In this document: positions 25,850-30,763 of the stretch, one piece after another
Layout: every line of letters starts with the position of its first letter
How positions within the stretch are numbered: position 1 is the first letter of the stretch
Assembly (NCBI GenBank): GCA_025056865.1
Contig: JANWVO010000003.1
Location: 124,001-188,000, forward strand
Direction of reading: 5' to 3'
Origin: Bryobacteraceae bacterium
Lineage (GTDB): Bacteria; Acidobacteriota; Terriglobia; Bryobacterales; Bryobacteraceae
DNA length: 64,000 nt
Made by a program: the position numbers and the translations under genes
The notes under the pieces: generated by a model
Told to the model about the DNA's origin: nothing
Seen by the model: the letters and a program-made list of their open reading frames with translations, nothing else
The model's database searches: none

Positions 25850-25945
25850 GGAAGCTCCACTGGGCCGGTGCCTGGCCTGGTCTTCAAAACCAGCGGGCGG
25901 CGCCTTCGCGCCGCTGGTGGGTTCGACTCCCACGAGCTTCCGCCA
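25850..25945 (+). tRNA. selC: tRNA-Sec (UCA anticodon), selenocysteine
   Basis: A 96-nt gene with all hallmarks of selenocysteine tRNA: 8-bp acceptor stem GGAAGCTC/GAGCTTCC, 6-bp D stem (with two wobble pairs), anticodon stem CTGGT/ACCAG with loop CTTCAAA and anticodon TCA (25884-25886), a long variable arm with a 7-bp stem and CTTC loop, T loop TTCGACT and encoded CCA after G73. The 3' part closely follows E. coli selC. A TACAAT box (25836-25841) sits 8 nt before the 5' end. The gene predicts UGA decoding as selenocysteine in this organism; selA, selB and selD are not in the window. Confidence 0.97.
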
Positions 25946-26063: not shown

Positions 26064-27092
26064 ATGAGCCAGATGGAACGGATTTACGTGATCCACCGCA
26101 TGCTGGAACGCGGGCGCGCCGTACCGCTGAGCCGAATTATCGAGAAGCTGGAAATCAGCCGGGCTACCGCGAAACGGGATATCGAATTCATGCGGTACCG
26201 CCTCGATGCTCCCATCCAGTACGACCGCGAACTCGGGGGATACCGCTATGCTCCGGCGGCGGAAGGGGACGGCCAGCCGCAGAAGTATCAGTTGCCGGGA
26301 ATCTGGCTCACCTCCTCCGAAATGAGCGCCCTGCTGCTCATGCGGCATCTGCTCGAACACCTGAATTCGGACGTGTTGTCAGAGGCCCTCGGCCCGGCGG
26401 TGGAAAAGATCGAAGCGATGGCAGGAGTCGGGGAGAGGACTCTCCGGGATCTCCGCAGACGTTTCCGCGTGCTGGCCGCCCGCCACCGTCCGGTGAATGA
26501 TCAGATTTTCCGCATCGTCAGCACCGCCGTTACCCAGCGGAAGAAGCTCAGGCTGACCTATTTCAGCCGTTCGCGCGGCGAAATTCTTACCCGCGATGTG
26601 AGTCCGCAACGTCTCATTTGGTACAACTCCAACTGGTATCTCGACGCGTGGTGCCATTTGCGGCAGGATTTCCGCAGTTTCGCGCTCGACGCCGTGCGGG
26701 GCGCCGAAATCCTGGAGCAGAAGGCCGATGAGCATCCGCAGGACGTTCTCGACGAGCGCCTCGGAGCAGGATACGGCATTTTTGCGGGGCGGCCCGACAA
26801 GACCGCCGTCCTGCGTTTCCGCTTGCCCGCCTCCCGATGGATCGAGCGGGAAGAGTGGCATCCGAACCAGCGTGTCACGGCGATCTCGACCGAAGAGGTG
26901 AGGCTGGAGGTGCCTTACTCGGATCCGCGCGAGCTGGTTCAGGACATCCTGCGCTTCGTCCCGTACGTCATTGTGGAGTCGCCCGAATCTTTGCGCGACG
27001 AGGTCATCCGGCACCTCAGCGACGGTCTCGCCGCCATGCAGGCCGAACGGCGCAAGCCCGCTGCAAGCCAGCAGAAGTTTTCTGCCAGGTGA
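26064..27092 (+). CDS. WYL-domain transcriptional regulator (YafY/DeoR-like)
   Basis: A 342-residue protein. The N-terminal winged HTH (about 1-65) contains RIYVIHRMLERGRAVPLSRIIEKLEISRATAKRDIEFMR. The WYL domain (about 150-235) has the signature region RLIWYNSNWYLDAWCHLRQDFRSFALDAV, and a C-terminal WCX extension (about 245-325) follows. WYL regulators bind nucleic acids or nucleotides and often control DNA-repair and phage-defence operons. A start at 26064 fits an AGGGGG site upstream. The next two genes, 172 nt downstream on the same strand, encode SbcD- and SbcC-like proteins, which it probably regulates. Confidence 0.92.
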   Translation: MSQMERIYVIHRMLERGRAVPLSRIIEKLEISRATAKRDIEFMRYRLDAPIQYDRELGGYRYAPAAEGDGQPQKYQLPGIWLTSSEMSALLLMRHLLEHLNSDVLSEALGPAVEKIEAMAGVGERTLRDLRRRFRVLAARHRPVNDQIFRIVSTAVTQRKKLRLTYFSRSRGEILTRDVSPQRLIWYNSNWYLDAWCHLRQDFRSFALDAVRGAEILEQKADEHPQDVLDERLGAGYGIFAGRPDKTAVLRFRLPASRWIEREEWHPNQRVTAISTEEVRLEVPYSDPRELVQDILRFVPYVIVESPESLRDEVIRHLSDGLAAMQAERRKPAASQQKFSAR

Positions 27093-27186
27093 GATGTTGC
27101 CGAAGGCTCAATCTGTGAGCCTGTTCCCGGTGGAGGATGGAGGCAGGGAGGAGGACATCGGAGGAGACGCCGGACGGGGCGGGAGT

Positions 27187-27218
27187 CCCGCTGCGGGTGG
27201 CTCCCTGCCCGCAGCGGG
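27187..27218. repeat. Perfect 11-bp inverted repeat upstream of the SbcD-like gene
   Basis: CCCGCTGCGGG and its exact reverse complement (27208-27218) separated by a 10-nt loop, lying between the WYL regulator and the nuclease gene. No T-run follows, so it is not an ordinary terminator. It is a candidate operator for the WYL protein or a structured mRNA leader. Confidence 0.6.
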
Positions 27219-27263
27219 CGGCCCAGCCCCGCCTCGGCCGTCCCCCGGAAAGGAGATGCGGAC

Positions 27264-28364
27264 ATGGGCGTGCGCTTCCTGCACACCGCGGACTGGCAGA
27301 TCGGAATGAATGCGGCCCACACGGGCCGGGCATCTCAGCGCGTTCGCGAGGCCCGCTTCGGTACGGCGCGGCGGCTTGCGGAAACCGCTGCCCAAGAACA
27401 CGTCGATTTCGCCGTGCTGGCGGGCGACACCTTCGAGAATCACGCCGTCTCGCTGTCCGACGTCGAACGCACCGCGGAAATCCTCGCCCTCTTCCCCTGT
27501 CCCGTCTTCGTCCTCCCGGGGAACCACGACCCCGCCGGCCCAGGCTCGGTGTGGGAGCTGCCGGTCTGGCGGACCCTCGCCAACGTGAGAATCCTGGATC
27601 GCGCCGAGCCTTGCGATGTCGGCGAAGCCGTGCTGTTTCCATGCCCCCTGTCGGCACGGTGGTCTGGCCACGATCCCACGGCCTGGATTCCTGCCGGGCC
27701 GTATGCGGACCGCATCCGCATCGGCATTGCCCACGGAACGCTGGACTGCCTTCCTTCGGCGGACCGCGCCCATCCCATCCCCGAGGACGCCGCCTGGCTG
27801 CGGCGCCTGGACTATCTCGCTCTGGGCGACTGGCACTCCGAGCGGATCTTCGGGGACGGGGAACGCGGATTCCGCATGGCCTACAGCGGCACTCCGGAAC
27901 CCACGCGGTTCGGCGAAGACGCGAGCGGGCGCGCGCTGATCGTCGAGATCGAAGCCCCGCGCGCACTCCCCCGCCTGTATTCCGTCGAAACTGCCCAGCT
28001 CGTCTGGCTTCAGCGGGAGCATGAGATCCTGCATCCCGGCCAGTTGGCCGAGGTGAAACGCGAACTCGAGGCGCTCCAGGGGCAGCACGTCCTGCTCACC
28101 GTCCGGCTGCGCGGCACGCTGCCTCCTGAAGACGCAGGCCTGCTCGAGGAACTCCGGCAGTTGGAAGCAGGATTCCTGTTCTTCCGGCTTGAGGAGAGCG
28201 GACTCGTCTCCGCACTCGACCTGAGTCTTCACGAGGTCAGCGACCCTGTCGTCCGCGAAGCGCTCGCGCGGCTGGCCCGGCAGTCGCAGGAGGGGCCAGA
28301 ACAGGACGCGGCCCGGCTCGCCATGCAAACCCTGCTGCGGCTGGCGAAAGGAGCAGGCGCATGA
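27264..28364 (+). CDS. SbcD/YhaO-like metallophosphoesterase (putative DNA repair nuclease)
   Basis: A 366-residue protein of the Mre11/SbcD calcineurin-like superfamily. Metal motifs: FLHTADWQIG (Asp10), LAGDTFEN, LPGNHDP, IAHGTLD and LALGDWHSE. In motif I the usual DxH histidine is glutamine (Gln12). The C-terminal ~120 residues would bind the coiled-coil partner. A GGAG site lies 7 nt before ATG. The stop overlaps the start of the SMC-like ATPase (28361-28364), as sbcD-sbcC pairs do. The pair probably processes abnormal DNA ends; a defence role is possible given the WYL gene upstream. Confidence 0.9.
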   Translation: MGVRFLHTADWQIGMNAAHTGRASQRVREARFGTARRLAETAAQEHVDFAVLAGDTFENHAVSLSDVERTAEILALFPCPVFVLPGNHDPAGPGSVWELPVWRTLANVRILDRAEPCDVGEAVLFPCPLSARWSGHDPTAWIPAGPYADRIRIGIAHGTLDCLPSADRAHPIPEDAAWLRRLDYLALGDWHSERIFGDGERGFRMAYSGTPEPTRFGEDASGRALIVEIEAPRALPRLYSVETAQLVWLQREHEILHPGQLAEVKRELEALQGQHVLLTVRLRGTLPPEDAGLLEELRQLEAGFLFFRLEESGLVSALDLSLHEVSDPVVREALARLARQSQEGPEQDAARLAMQTLLRLAKGAGA

Positions 28365-30763
28365 TCATCCATTCCGTGGAACTCGAGGGCTTCGGCTGCT
28401 TTCTCCAACGCGCCCGCTTCTCCTTCTCGGCAAGCCAGCCGAACCTCATCACCGGCCCGAACGGCAGCGGGAAATCGACGCTGTTCGGAGCCCTGGCAGC
28501 GGCGTTCGTGATTCACCACCGCGCAAACGCCGAAGATATCCGCCGGTGGAAACCGTGGGGCCGGGACCTCGCGCCGCGCGTCACCGTGGAATTCGAATGC
28601 GGCGGAACACGCTACCGCCTGACCAAAGTCTTTCTCCGGCAAATGCAGGCCCTGCTGGAACAGGAAGGGCCGCATGGGTTTGCGCCGTCAGCCTCGGGCG
28701 ATGCGGTCGAGGAACGTCTTTCCGGGTTTCTGGGAGGCTCTCCGGCGCCCGGCATCGATGCGCGAACGCGGCGCTGGCTGCTGGCAGGCCTGCTCTGGGT
28801 GCCGCAGCATCAGCTTCTCCACACCGAGGTGGATGAAGCCGTGCAGGAATCCGTCCGCCGGACGTTTGGCGCCCAGACGCGAAACCCTGCTCTCCAAAGA
28901 ATCCTGGCGGAAGTGGAAAGGCTTTACGCGCAGGACTGGACGCCCACCGGACGCGCAAGGGCGAATTCGCCGCTTCAAACGCTCCCGCCGCAAATCGAAC
29001 AACTGGAAGAGGAGATCCGCGAGCTGTCAGCCGGCCTGAGCCAGCTCGAGACGCTCCGGGACAGGATGGCCGAACTGGAGAGACAGATCGCGCTCCTCGA
29101 AGCGGAACGCGCCCGCCTGACCGGATCGGTCCGGGGGCTGGAGGCAGAGGACCAGCGGCGGAGCCAGATCCAGGCGGACCTCGAAAAGAAGCGCCTCGAT
29201 AAGGTCTGGGCAGAGGCCGAATATGGCCGCCTGAGCGGAATCCTCGATGCCCGCGCCACCCTGGGGAACCGTCGGCTCGCGGCGCAGCGGCGCGTGGAAG
29301 CCCTGGAAGCCGGTCTCCAGGATGCCTCAGCCCGCCTCCATGGCGCCGATGAGGCCTTTCGCAAGGCCTGCGAGGAAGCGGACCAGCACATCGCGGCTGC
29401 GGAGCGCGGGCTGGAGCAGGCACACGCGCCAGATGCACGGGAACTGGCGCAGATGGAGAGGCTGGCCCGCGAACGGGCGGAGCTGACGGTGAAGCTCGAC
29501 AGCGCGCTGCTCCATGCCGAAATCATTCCGGAAGTCGACGGGCGCCTGGAGGTGCTCGAAGGCGAACCCCGCGGCTGGATGGAGCTGCACAGCCTTGAAT
29601 CGGCGCGGATCTCGGGCTCGCCCCGCATCGAGCTGCGCATTCCGGGATTCGGGCGGCTGCGGTTGAGCGGACCAGCCGAGTCTGCCGCGGAGCTGCGGGC
29701 GCGTCTGGCCGAAATCGAGGAGGCATGGCGGAAACTCGTGGAGCCTTACGGGAACGGCGGGCTCGAAGAGCTCCGACAGCGTCGGCAGCACGCGGATGCC
29801 CTGGCGCTGGAACTGGAACGCTGGCGCGCGGCGCGCGCCTCCCATCAGGAAGGACGCAGCGCCGAAGCGGTCGCCCGGGACGCCGCGCGGACGGAATTCG
29901 GCCTCCTCCAGACGCAACTGGCGGAGGCCCAAGGGGAGCTGGACTCTCTGGAAGAGGAGGCCATGCGGCTTCAGGCGGAAGGCCGGTCCGACGCCGAGAT
30001 CCGGCAGGAGCTCGATCGGCTTGCTCTCGACGTGCATGGACTCACGGAAGCCATCGCGCAGCTCGGCCGACAGATGGAGGCGTTCCCCGCGGATCTCGGT
30101 GACCGACTGGAAAGGCTCCGCCAGTCCGCAGCGGCCCTGGAGACGAACCTCGCCACGGCACGGGAAGAGCTCCAGCAATATCGCGACCGCCTGAACCAGC
30201 TCCAGGGGCAGGCCATTTACTCTTCGCTGGCAGAGAAGCAGGCCCTGCTGGAGCAGAAGAAACTCGACCTCGAGAGAGAGCGCCTGCGGGCGGACGCCAA
30301 CCGCCTGCTCAGAACCACTCTGAATGCCATCCTCGACGAAGCGCAGAGGCAGGTGCTGCCCCGCCTCGAGGTGCAGGTCCTGGAGCTGCTCGACGAGATC
30401 ACGGCGGACTTCGCCCGCCAGGTGGCCCTCGAACCCGGGTCTTGGGCGCCACGCCAGATCCTGCCCGCCATTGCGGATGTGCAAGTGCCCCCTGCCCAGT
30501 TCTCGGGCGGCGAGCAGGAGCAGCTCCACCTCGCTGTCCGCCTGGCGCTCGCCGACATTCTCACTCAGGAAGAGCCATTCCCCGTGGTGCTGGACGATGC
30601 CATGCTCTCCACCGACGACGGGCGTCTTTTCCGCATCTTGCGCATGCTGGAACAGCGCCAGGGCCGCATCCAGTGGATGATCCTCACCTGTCATCCCGAG
30701 CGGTTCGCCTCGCTCGCAGGAGCTCATGTCATCCGTATGGGCACCCACGATGCAGCGGCGTGA
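28361..30763 (+). CDS. SbcC/SMC-like ATPase lacking a zinc hook
   Basis: An 800-residue ATPase. Walker A TGPNGSGKST (31-40), the ABC signature FSGGEQEQL (714-722) and Walker B FPVVLDDAM (740-748) form the head. Two long coiled coils (about 200-390 and 475-670) flank a short beta-rich insert (about 395-460, LEVLEGEPRGWMELHSL to RIELRIPGFGRLRLSG). The apex of Rad50/SbcC normally carries a CxxC zinc hook; none is present, so dimerisation may use the beta insert. It is coupled to the SbcD-like gene by a 4-nt overlap. Total length is short for SbcC (about 1,050) and closer to YhaN-type proteins. Confidence 0.9.
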   Translation: MIIHSVELEGFGCFLQRARFSFSASQPNLITGPNGSGKSTLFGALAAAFVIHHRANAEDIRRWKPWGRDLAPRVTVEFECGGTRYRLTKVFLRQMQALLEQEGPHGFAPSASGDAVEERLSGFLGGSPAPGIDARTRRWLLAGLLWVPQHQLLHTEVDEAVQESVRRTFGAQTRNPALQRILAEVERLYAQDWTPTGRARANSPLQTLPPQIEQLEEEIRELSAGLSQLETLRDRMAELERQIALLEAERARLTGSVRGLEAEDQRRSQIQADLEKKRLDKVWAEAEYGRLSGILDARATLGNRRLAAQRRVEALEAGLQDASARLHGADEAFRKACEEADQHIAAAERGLEQAHAPDARELAQMERLARERAELTVKLDSALLHAEIIPEVDGRLEVLEGEPRGWMELHSLESARISGSPRIELRIPGFGRLRLSGPAESAAELRARLAEIEEAWRKLVEPYGNGGLEELRQRRQHADALALELERWRAARASHQEGRSAEAVARDAARTEFGLLQTQLAEAQGELDSLEEEAMRLQAEGRSDAEIRQELDRLALDVHGLTEAIAQLGRQMEAFPADLGDRLERLRQSAAALETNLATAREELQQYRDRLNQLQGQAIYSSLAEKQALLEQKKLDLERERLRADANRLLRTTLNAILDEAQRQVLPRLEVQVLELLDEITADFARQVALEPGSWAPRQILPAIADVQVPPAQFSGGEQEQLHLAVRLALADILTQEEPFPVVLDDAMLSTDDGRLFRILRMLEQRQGRIQWMILTCHPERFASLAGAHVIRMGTHDAAA

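Follow-up and report, generated by a model that had tools for sequence, protein, structure and literature searches.

Regulators with a WYL domain have been described as activators of dispersed promoters and as local repressors of defense loci. DriD of Caulobacter, which joins a helix-turn-helix (HTH) to a WYL domain, activates several unlinked promoters with poor -35 elements from palindromic sites (ATACGAC-N7-GTCGTAT) that keep a fixed distance to the -10 element and have the -35 element at their center (PMC12340889). Mycobacterial PafBC, a two-protein heterodimer that governs the damage response, adapts sigma at the -35 region of its regulon and responds to single-stranded DNA, which turns it on (PMC11804915). 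BrxR and CapW, from bacteriophage exclusion (BREX) and cyclic-oligonucleotide-based antiphage signaling (CBASS) loci, are local repressors whose genes adjoin defense-type genes; BrxR represses its own island from an inverted-repeat operator with a 5-bp spacer, placed downstream of the -10 element (PMC9122601). At the level of many systems, the Gac/Rsm pathway of Pseudomonas activates dispersed defense genes post-transcriptionally, as a genome-wide immune regulon (PMC11888443). Coordination among the many separate immune systems of a bacterium is for the most part an open question. Here we describe a locus in a stretch of 64,000 nucleotides (nt), the window, from a Bryobacteraceae bacterium (GCA_025056865.1, contig JANWVO010000003.1, positions 124,001 to 188,000, forward strand), in which a gene for a WYL regulator is followed by genes for a metallophosphoesterase and an SMC-type ATPase.

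Sequence comparisons suggest that this WYL protein is probably an activator of the DriD/PafBC sort, serving a dispersed regulon of immunity and DNA-end-processing genes through the palindrome GGCTCA-N5-TGAGCC, which would take the place of a -35 element. The locus has the following parts.

26064-27092, plus strand: WYL-domain regulator (HTH, WYL, and WCX domains, Pfam matches over cut-off), predicted activator
27105-27121, plus strand: palindrome GGCTCA-ATCTG-TGAGCC, from sequence comparison the predicted WYL operator replacing the -35 element
27133-27138, plus strand: GAGGAT, a hexamer that weakly resembles a -10 element (nAnnnT only), set at the fixed spacer of 11 nt
27264-28364, plus strand: SbcD/Mre11-like metallophosphoesterase with glutamine (Gln) in motif I
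28361-30763, plus strand: SbcC/Rad50-like SMC-type ATPase without a CxxC hook

The palindrome is conserved just past the WYL stop codon in the WYL-phosphoesterase gaps of related loci, and in the window it begins 13 nt past that stop. An earlier pattern, GGCTC-N5-GTGAGCC, had many copies in the genus and elsewhere came close to background. The exact sequence GGCTCA-N5-TGAGCC occurs 34 times in the five genomes of the genus (8, 11, 5, 1, and 9 copies in G000 to G004, G000 being the genome of the window), and the reversed pattern is absent from each. Allowing up to one mismatch gives 14, 26, 17, 19, and 17 copies, versus 0, 6, 4, 3, and 4 for the reversed pattern. The 27 genomes of the same family without a WYL relative hold 19 exact palindromes. 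Placement also distinguishes the genus sites: 31 of 34 fall outside predicted genes versus 10 of 25 control copies (Fisher p = 3.5e-5), where the controls are the exact copies in the 51 searched genomes that lack a close relative of the WYL protein (a 25% match in G058 was counted as none), and where genes and starts were called with a codon-score script trained on genes of the window, which may have called too few genes in the control genomes. Three sites fall within predicted genes: L144, which is at the extreme end of the gene before csm6, L175, and L177.

A -10-like hexamer follows the palindrome at a single distance. On the 68 strands of the 34 exact sites, nAnnnT occurs 22 times at a spacer of 11 nt and 0 to 6 times at each other spacer from 5 to 21; on control strands it occurs at spacer 11 in 0 of 50 (Fisher p = 1.2e-6). 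This is the choice-free count. In a set of 48 hand-chosen, oriented sites, for five of which (L137, L142, L148, L171, and L173) the orientation is arbitrary, the hexamer is found at spacer 11 on the gene-ward strand in 32 and on the opposite strand in 6. An A occupies the second hexamer place in 43 of these 48 versus 14 of 50 control strands, and when the two divergent sites are counted both ways (50 rows) no other spacer from 5 to 21 rises above 5. The set omits L167, L175, and L177 as well as fetched one-mismatch hits that lie in genes or precede none (in L178-L183, L200-L203, L206-L209, and L211-L214), and many more one-mismatch hits fall outside the fetched set. Since the hexamer lies exactly 11 nt downstream, the palindrome covers the -35 region; a 17-nt spacer would place the -35 hexamer on the variable N5, which accounts for there being no conserved -35 element. 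Several promoters thus have this arrangement, at spacer 11 only. With up to two mismatches, the full rule is satisfied once in the window, at 27105-27138. No sigma-70 consensus promoter was found between 25800 and 31000, with 0.2 expected.

Apart from the site of the trio, 13 of the 33 exact sites face defense-type genes at unlinked loci, as a raw count with no genome-wide baseline of defense genes. The trio's own site faces the phosphoesterase gene, and with it 14 of 34 face the phosphoesterase or defense-type genes. The targets include components of clustered regularly interspaced short palindromic repeat (CRISPR) systems, as follows (loci in brackets).

csm6: 4 of 34 sites (L133, L144, L151, and L170), in four of the five genus genomes; in G000 it heads the type III-A operon
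nuclease whose PD-(D/E)XK match, to CARF nucleases, is weak (E = 2e-6): 3 of 34 sites (L139, L166, and L169), in three genus genomes
hmaC: 3 of 34 sites (L140, L165, and L152), in two genus genomes
cas3, best model Cas3e: one genome (L150)
SNF2 helicase, ZorD/DpdE-like by its matches: L168
ADP-ribosylglycohydrolase, its gene adjoining an AAA gene that is IetA/TRIP13-like: L149

The csm6-site locus of G000 encodes cas10, csm2 to csm5, cas6, cas1, and cas2, and the hmaC site of G004 heads hmaC, methylase, and helicase genes. Two further targets are uncharacterized gene families. A gene for a 100-amino-acid (aa) protein (L135, L141, L146, L204, and L210) and the gene after era (L138, L143, L147, L172, and L205) carry the site in all five genus genomes, counting variants of G002 and G003 with the half site GGATCA, and both also carry the -10-like hexamer in all five.

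Evidence that the palindrome belongs to the WYL protein comes in part from other genera. In a second genus (G033) the WYL orthologue (47% identity) lies on another contig, away from the pair, and a different gene stands upstream of the pair, yet the phosphoesterase gene is preceded, at 24 nt, by an exact palindrome; the site thus persists at the pair without an adjacent regulator. No palindrome was seen beside the WYL gene of G033, whose contig covers only 117 nt on the downstream side of the gene. The other exact site of that genome is flanked by an AAA gene and an ADP-ribosylglycohydrolase gene, the pairing also present in G004. In a third genus (G014) a single strand carries, in succession, the WYL orthologue, a one-mismatch palindrome between it and sbcD, and genes for SbcD (with SbcD_C), SbcC, PD-(D/E)XK, and UvrD proteins (L227:1-9435). 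The palindrome also stands about 12-14 nt past the WYL gene in G022 (exact) and G024 (one mismatch). In G356, the genome of locus L024, a gene that matches RNase_H_2 and AAA_11, and that we take to be a TM0106-type nuclease/helicase, has a site 36 nt ahead of it. Support from outside the genus for ownership by the WYL protein is thin; the comparisons as a whole make it the likely owner of this class of promoters.

Pfam matches on the open reading frame (ORF) of the regulator are WYL at 72.7 bits (cut-off 21.8), WCX at 46.3 (23.9), and HTH_11 at 26.8 (25). A single PF13280 protein was found in each of the genus genomes G000 to G004, and the HTH region is similar across 12 WYL sequences. The nearest solved sequence is PafBC (E = 4e-20).

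We propose that a WYL dimer binds GGCTCA-N5-TGAGCC where a -35 element would otherwise stand, with exactly 11 nt between the site and the -10 element, and that the bound protein lets the housekeeping RNA polymerase start at the palindrome promoters. The scattered targets would be the SbcCD-like pair, the csm6-led type III-A CRISPR operon, cas3 in one species, Hma, and the PD-(D/E)XK-like nuclease, with the SNF2 helicase, the ADP-ribosylglycohydrolase/AAA pair, and small or secreted proteins as further predicted members. The likely signal would be nucleic acid arising from DNA damage or infection, for example single-stranded DNA on the WYL domain, and the adjacent pair would process DNA ends in the manner of SbcCD. 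Binding and activation by the WYL protein, the signal, and what the pair does as enzymes are inferred; because the geometry is DriD-like, activation is the best reading of the sites.

The described systems each match this scheme in part. DriD shares its domains, the fixed distance between palindrome and -10 element, the use of several unlinked promoters, and the poor -35 element; its site differs in sequence, and the targets named in the available text are damage-type genes, with no CRISPR or Hma genes among them (PMC12340889). PafBC is the closest solved sequence, acts at the -35 region by sigma adaptation, and has a regulon, but is described as a heterodimer (PMC11804915), whereas a single protein and a symmetric site are found here. 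BrxR and CapW resemble the locus in the adjoining defense-type genes and BrxR also in its 5-bp spacer; they are local, with the BrxR operator downstream of the -10 element (PMC9122601), unlike a site over the -35 region of unlinked targets. An operator of the BrxR/CapW type restricted to its own defense locus was rejected, as the palindrome recurs at unlinked genes. Gac/Rsm likewise activates many dispersed defense systems (PMC11888443), and differs from the predicted one-protein promoter switch in working post-transcriptionally.

A number of observations weigh against such a regulon. Twelve of the 34 exact sites face genes without a known tie to defense or repair (the gene after era, 4; the 100-aa gene, 3; M48-type or other secreted proteins, 5), five lie near transposases or face genes of no assigned type, and three (L167, L175, and L177) are within genes or more than 1 kb from gene starts. 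The hexamer nAnnnT at spacer 11 is present on either strand of only 18 of the 34, being missing at three of four csm6 sites, both of the first PD-(D/E)XK sites, cas3, and all M48 or secreted-protein sites; target sites lacking the hexamer mostly keep the A in second place. GAGGAT, the hexamer of the window, is a poor -10 element. In G003 the sole exact site is inside a gene, and the regulon sites carry a one-base change. Outside the genus the excess is small, at 1.6 exact sites per WYL-bearing genome versus 0.7, and of eight exact sites in five WYL-bearing genomes, three are in clear regulatory places and five are not. No nuclease gene lies downstream of the WYL gene and its site in G022 and G024. 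DriD itself matches the WYL protein weakly (E = 6e-4).

The same promoters could be explained in other ways. It is possible, although we find it doubtful, that the WYL protein governs a DNA-damage regulon with the pair and RecB/UvrD-type genes as its core and the defense genes as occasional passengers. The sbcD, sbcC, PD-(D/E)XK, and UvrD genes behind the WYL gene of G014 fit this account, as do PafBC and DriD, which respond to DNA damage in the portions of the reports available; the recurrence of sites at csm6 (four of five genus genomes), the PD-(D/E)XK-like nuclease (three), hmaC (two), and cas3 (one) fits it poorly, and no classical SOS genes were seen among the sites. Alternatively, the WYL protein may own the sites and repress from them, covering the -35 region and leaving on a nucleotide or nucleic-acid signal in the fashion of BrxR and CapW, which are WYL proteins of defense loci and repressors (PMC9122601). 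We consider this unlikely: there is one exact spacing over the -35 place and no conserved -35 hexamer that RNA polymerase could use unaided, the geometry is that of the activator DriD (PMC12340889), and the nearest solved sequence is PafBC.

The promoter class might also be real and be bound by another regulator, the WYL gene being merely one neighbor, and the sites of G014, G024, and G034, which are mainly beside the WYL gene itself, can be taken that way. This is improbable given that a palindrome with up to two mismatches lies beside the WYL gene in every WYL-phosphoesterase locus examined, that it does so in G014, G022, and G024 despite other downstream genes, and that the excess of sites is confined to the genus bearing this sole WYL protein. 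It is very improbable that the palindrome works at the RNA level, as a hairpin in untranslated regions, and is no DNA operator. The sequence is foldable and stands 8-14 nt past the WYL stop in several genomes, but its arms are nearly invariant and a -10-like hexamer follows at a fixed distance; as the hexamer is downstream, the palindrome would be outside any transcript started there.

Extending the activator proposal, a single nucleic-acid-sensing WYL activator could run a genome-wide immune regulon in this genus, to which new defense systems are added by gaining the promoter. DNA ends or single strands would then co-induce a hookless SbcCD-like DNA-end processor along with type III CRISPR-Cas, cas3, Hma, and several nucleases, much as LexA/RecA does for repair. 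We put this forward tentatively, with its chances a little short of even. Coordinated immunity as such is not new, since the Gac/Rsm immune regulon has already been described; a one-protein WYL promoter switch would be. Among the papers surveyed, in which subscription journals were thinly represented, we found no WYL regulator that governs CRISPR and other defense genes at unlinked loci. The defense WYL regulators found there act on their own locus, and here unlinked CRISPR, Hma, and nuclease genes seem to share one promoter class. The rule of palindrome, 11 nt, and hexamer predicts further members in any genome bearing the regulator. It also connects three kinds of protein with immunity or damage in a way that can be tested: the 100-aa family, the product of the gene after era, and secreted proteins of M48 type.

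The 100-aa family and the gene after era are candidates for new immune or damage-response proteins. Another site-bearing protein family (L136, L145, L174, and L176) is an M48 peptidase by Pfam in L176, and the other members are similar to it; a BepA-like protein is named in the Gac/Rsm immune regulon of Pseudomonas in the available text (PMC11888443). The half site is altered to GGATCA at several targets in G003 and partly in G002 (L204, L205, L210, and L174), which looks as if the specificity of the regulator had shifted. Operator copies also occur near transposase-like genes, at L148:2495-2511 and as a tandem pair 46 nt apart at L171:2473-2535.

The sequence-only reading of this locus had recognized a WYL regulator, a metallophosphoesterase, and an SMC-like ATPase, and each is over its Pfam cut-off: the phosphoesterase matches Metallophos (41.4 bits), and the ATPase matches SMC_N (48.9) and AAA_23 (37.5). 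The AlphaFold model of the phosphoesterase (mean predicted local distance difference test score, pLDDT, 87.9) has its best structural matches in Escherichia coli SbcD and Mre11 (7yzo, E = 2.7e-16) and is predicted to have an Mre11-type fold. The 4-nt overlap of the two ORFs, also noted in that reading, is present, as are a Rad50-like ATPase head (by sequence match) and the order D then C of SbcCD and Mre11-Rad50.

Other features set the pair apart, in agreement with the earlier view that this is not a standard sbcDC locus. Motif I of Mre11 is DxH, and the coiled coil of the SbcCD/Mre11-Rad50 ATPase carries a CxxC zinc hook. In the window, motif I is DWQ. Gln occupies this place in all nine rows of the alignment (A1), and across 84 scanned loci pattern searches gave Gln in 75, His in 4, and no assignment in 5, one of the two patterns favoring Gln. 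The window ATPase has no CxxC hook (cysteines at 13, 80, 337, and 777), and no CxxC was found in the middle 40% of any of 75 relatives over 700 aa. Curated models score far under their cut-offs (sbcd, 40.3 versus 77.65; sbcc, 34.2 versus 478.5), and Pfam found no SbcD_C domain in the phosphoesterase. Given the low scores, the Gln in motif I, and the missing hook, the sequences identify the pair as SbcCD-like, not SbcCD. The PADLOC model LmuB matches the ATPase (E = 4e-18). LmuA and LmuC gave no match among the other two proteins of the trio (flanking genes were not scanned for them), and a Lamassu system, with only the LmuB-like ATPase matched and the LmuA effector and LmuC unmatched in the trio, was set aside.

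The pair is widespread. A scan of named genomes with alignment A1 as query yielded at least 576 phosphoesterase relatives across many phyla, of which 80 were kept; a contig scan of named genomes with the ATPase alone as query gave no match. The closest named record among the matches listed is a Bryobacterales bacterium (locus L024, 54%). An ATPase match accompanies the phosphoesterase in 82 of the 84 scanned loci, and the remaining two stop at a contig end. A WYL gene lies directly upstream of the pair in only three of the 84 (L020, L024, and L026), as judged with a home-made WYL profile and with some loci having short flanks. A search of its own genome with the phosphoesterase (E up to 0.01) found itself alone.

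The sequence-only reading had suggested a survey of gene neighborhoods, and in 25 loci of other phyla 88 proteins beside the pair match 52 PADLOC families (E ≤ 1e-20), 25 of 32 suitable loci and 88 of 120 listed proteins having been used after mostly short ORFs were dropped by hand. Nearly all of the 25 families listed have one member each, and the families beside the pair include DdmE, a type I restriction enzyme, DarT, DarG, GajA/Old, BrxF, PglX, and a Pycsar cyclase. The 72 proteins around control sites matched one PADLOC family, a subtilase, in what is a rough control, as the two sets were drawn from different genomes. With such neighbors (in L027-L092), the hookless SbcCD-like pair may itself be an undescribed defense module, and this widespread pair is placed in a defense or damage context. 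In Myxococcus xanthus a second SbcD (MXAN_0149) adjoins the RecN-like MXAN_0148, and both are lower after 10 h of mitomycin C in the available text (PMC12288472); MXAN_0149 may belong to the hookless family.

Within the genus the trio is an inherited core locus and no mobile defense island, because its neighbors are fixed and the gene order of SSF transporter, selenocysteine tRNA (tRNA-Sec), WYL, phosphoesterase, and ATPase is identical in all five genomes (the ATPase of G002 is interrupted by a contig end). Identity of the other four genomes to the window is 67-71% for the WYL protein and 81-90% for the transporter; it is lower than for WYL in the phosphoesterase (53-70%) and the ATPase (37-55%). 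The earlier interpretation as a genome-defense or repair operon stands in part: the palindrome also fronts CRISPR, Hma, and nuclease genes, neighbors of the pair in other phyla match many defense families, and the locus itself is core. That reading would have been contradicted by a core locus in all relatives with no link to defense or damage; ATPase relatives occur in 9 of 61 related genomes (all five of the genus, two of the family, and two of the order), and the link is present. A tie of the locus to defense and DNA-end processing is thus supported. The tRNA gene immediately precedes the regulator in all five genus genomes and is context, not part of the system.

25850-25945, plus strand: tRNA-Sec, conserved upstream neighbor

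The perfect 11-bp inverted repeat reported earlier between regulator and nuclease is present as well.

27187-27218, plus strand: 11-bp inverted repeat, arms 27187-27197 and 27208-27218, loop GGTGGCTCCCTG largely kept in the genus

It had been offered as the site for the WYL protein, a role predicted here for the other palindrome, at 27105-27121, with its own -10 element. The repeat was rejected as an operator, being hardly above chance: the 64-kb window holds five perfect repeats of at least 11 bp with loops of 3-30, versus 0, 0, 2, and 3 in four base-composition shuffles, and relatives retain just a shorter hairpin at its position. The loop box GGGGTGGCTCCCTGCCC (up to two mismatches) matches best at the trio in G000 to G003; its remaining two-mismatch matches are no rarer in other relatives or with the reversed control. 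If the promoter reading holds, the mRNA of the phosphoesterase gene would carry the repeat in its 5' leader. Rfam gave nothing for the leader at gathering thresholds and chance-level matches alone at E up to 10, and the covariation term of a consensus structure from six leader sequences is 0. The predicted leader (27139-27263) is conserved in the genus and has purine runs, with GGAGGACATCGGAGGAG in the window. Its hairpin has the loop CUCC inside GGTGGCTCCCTG and shows one double change at each of two pairs; a role of the leader in translation control is possible.

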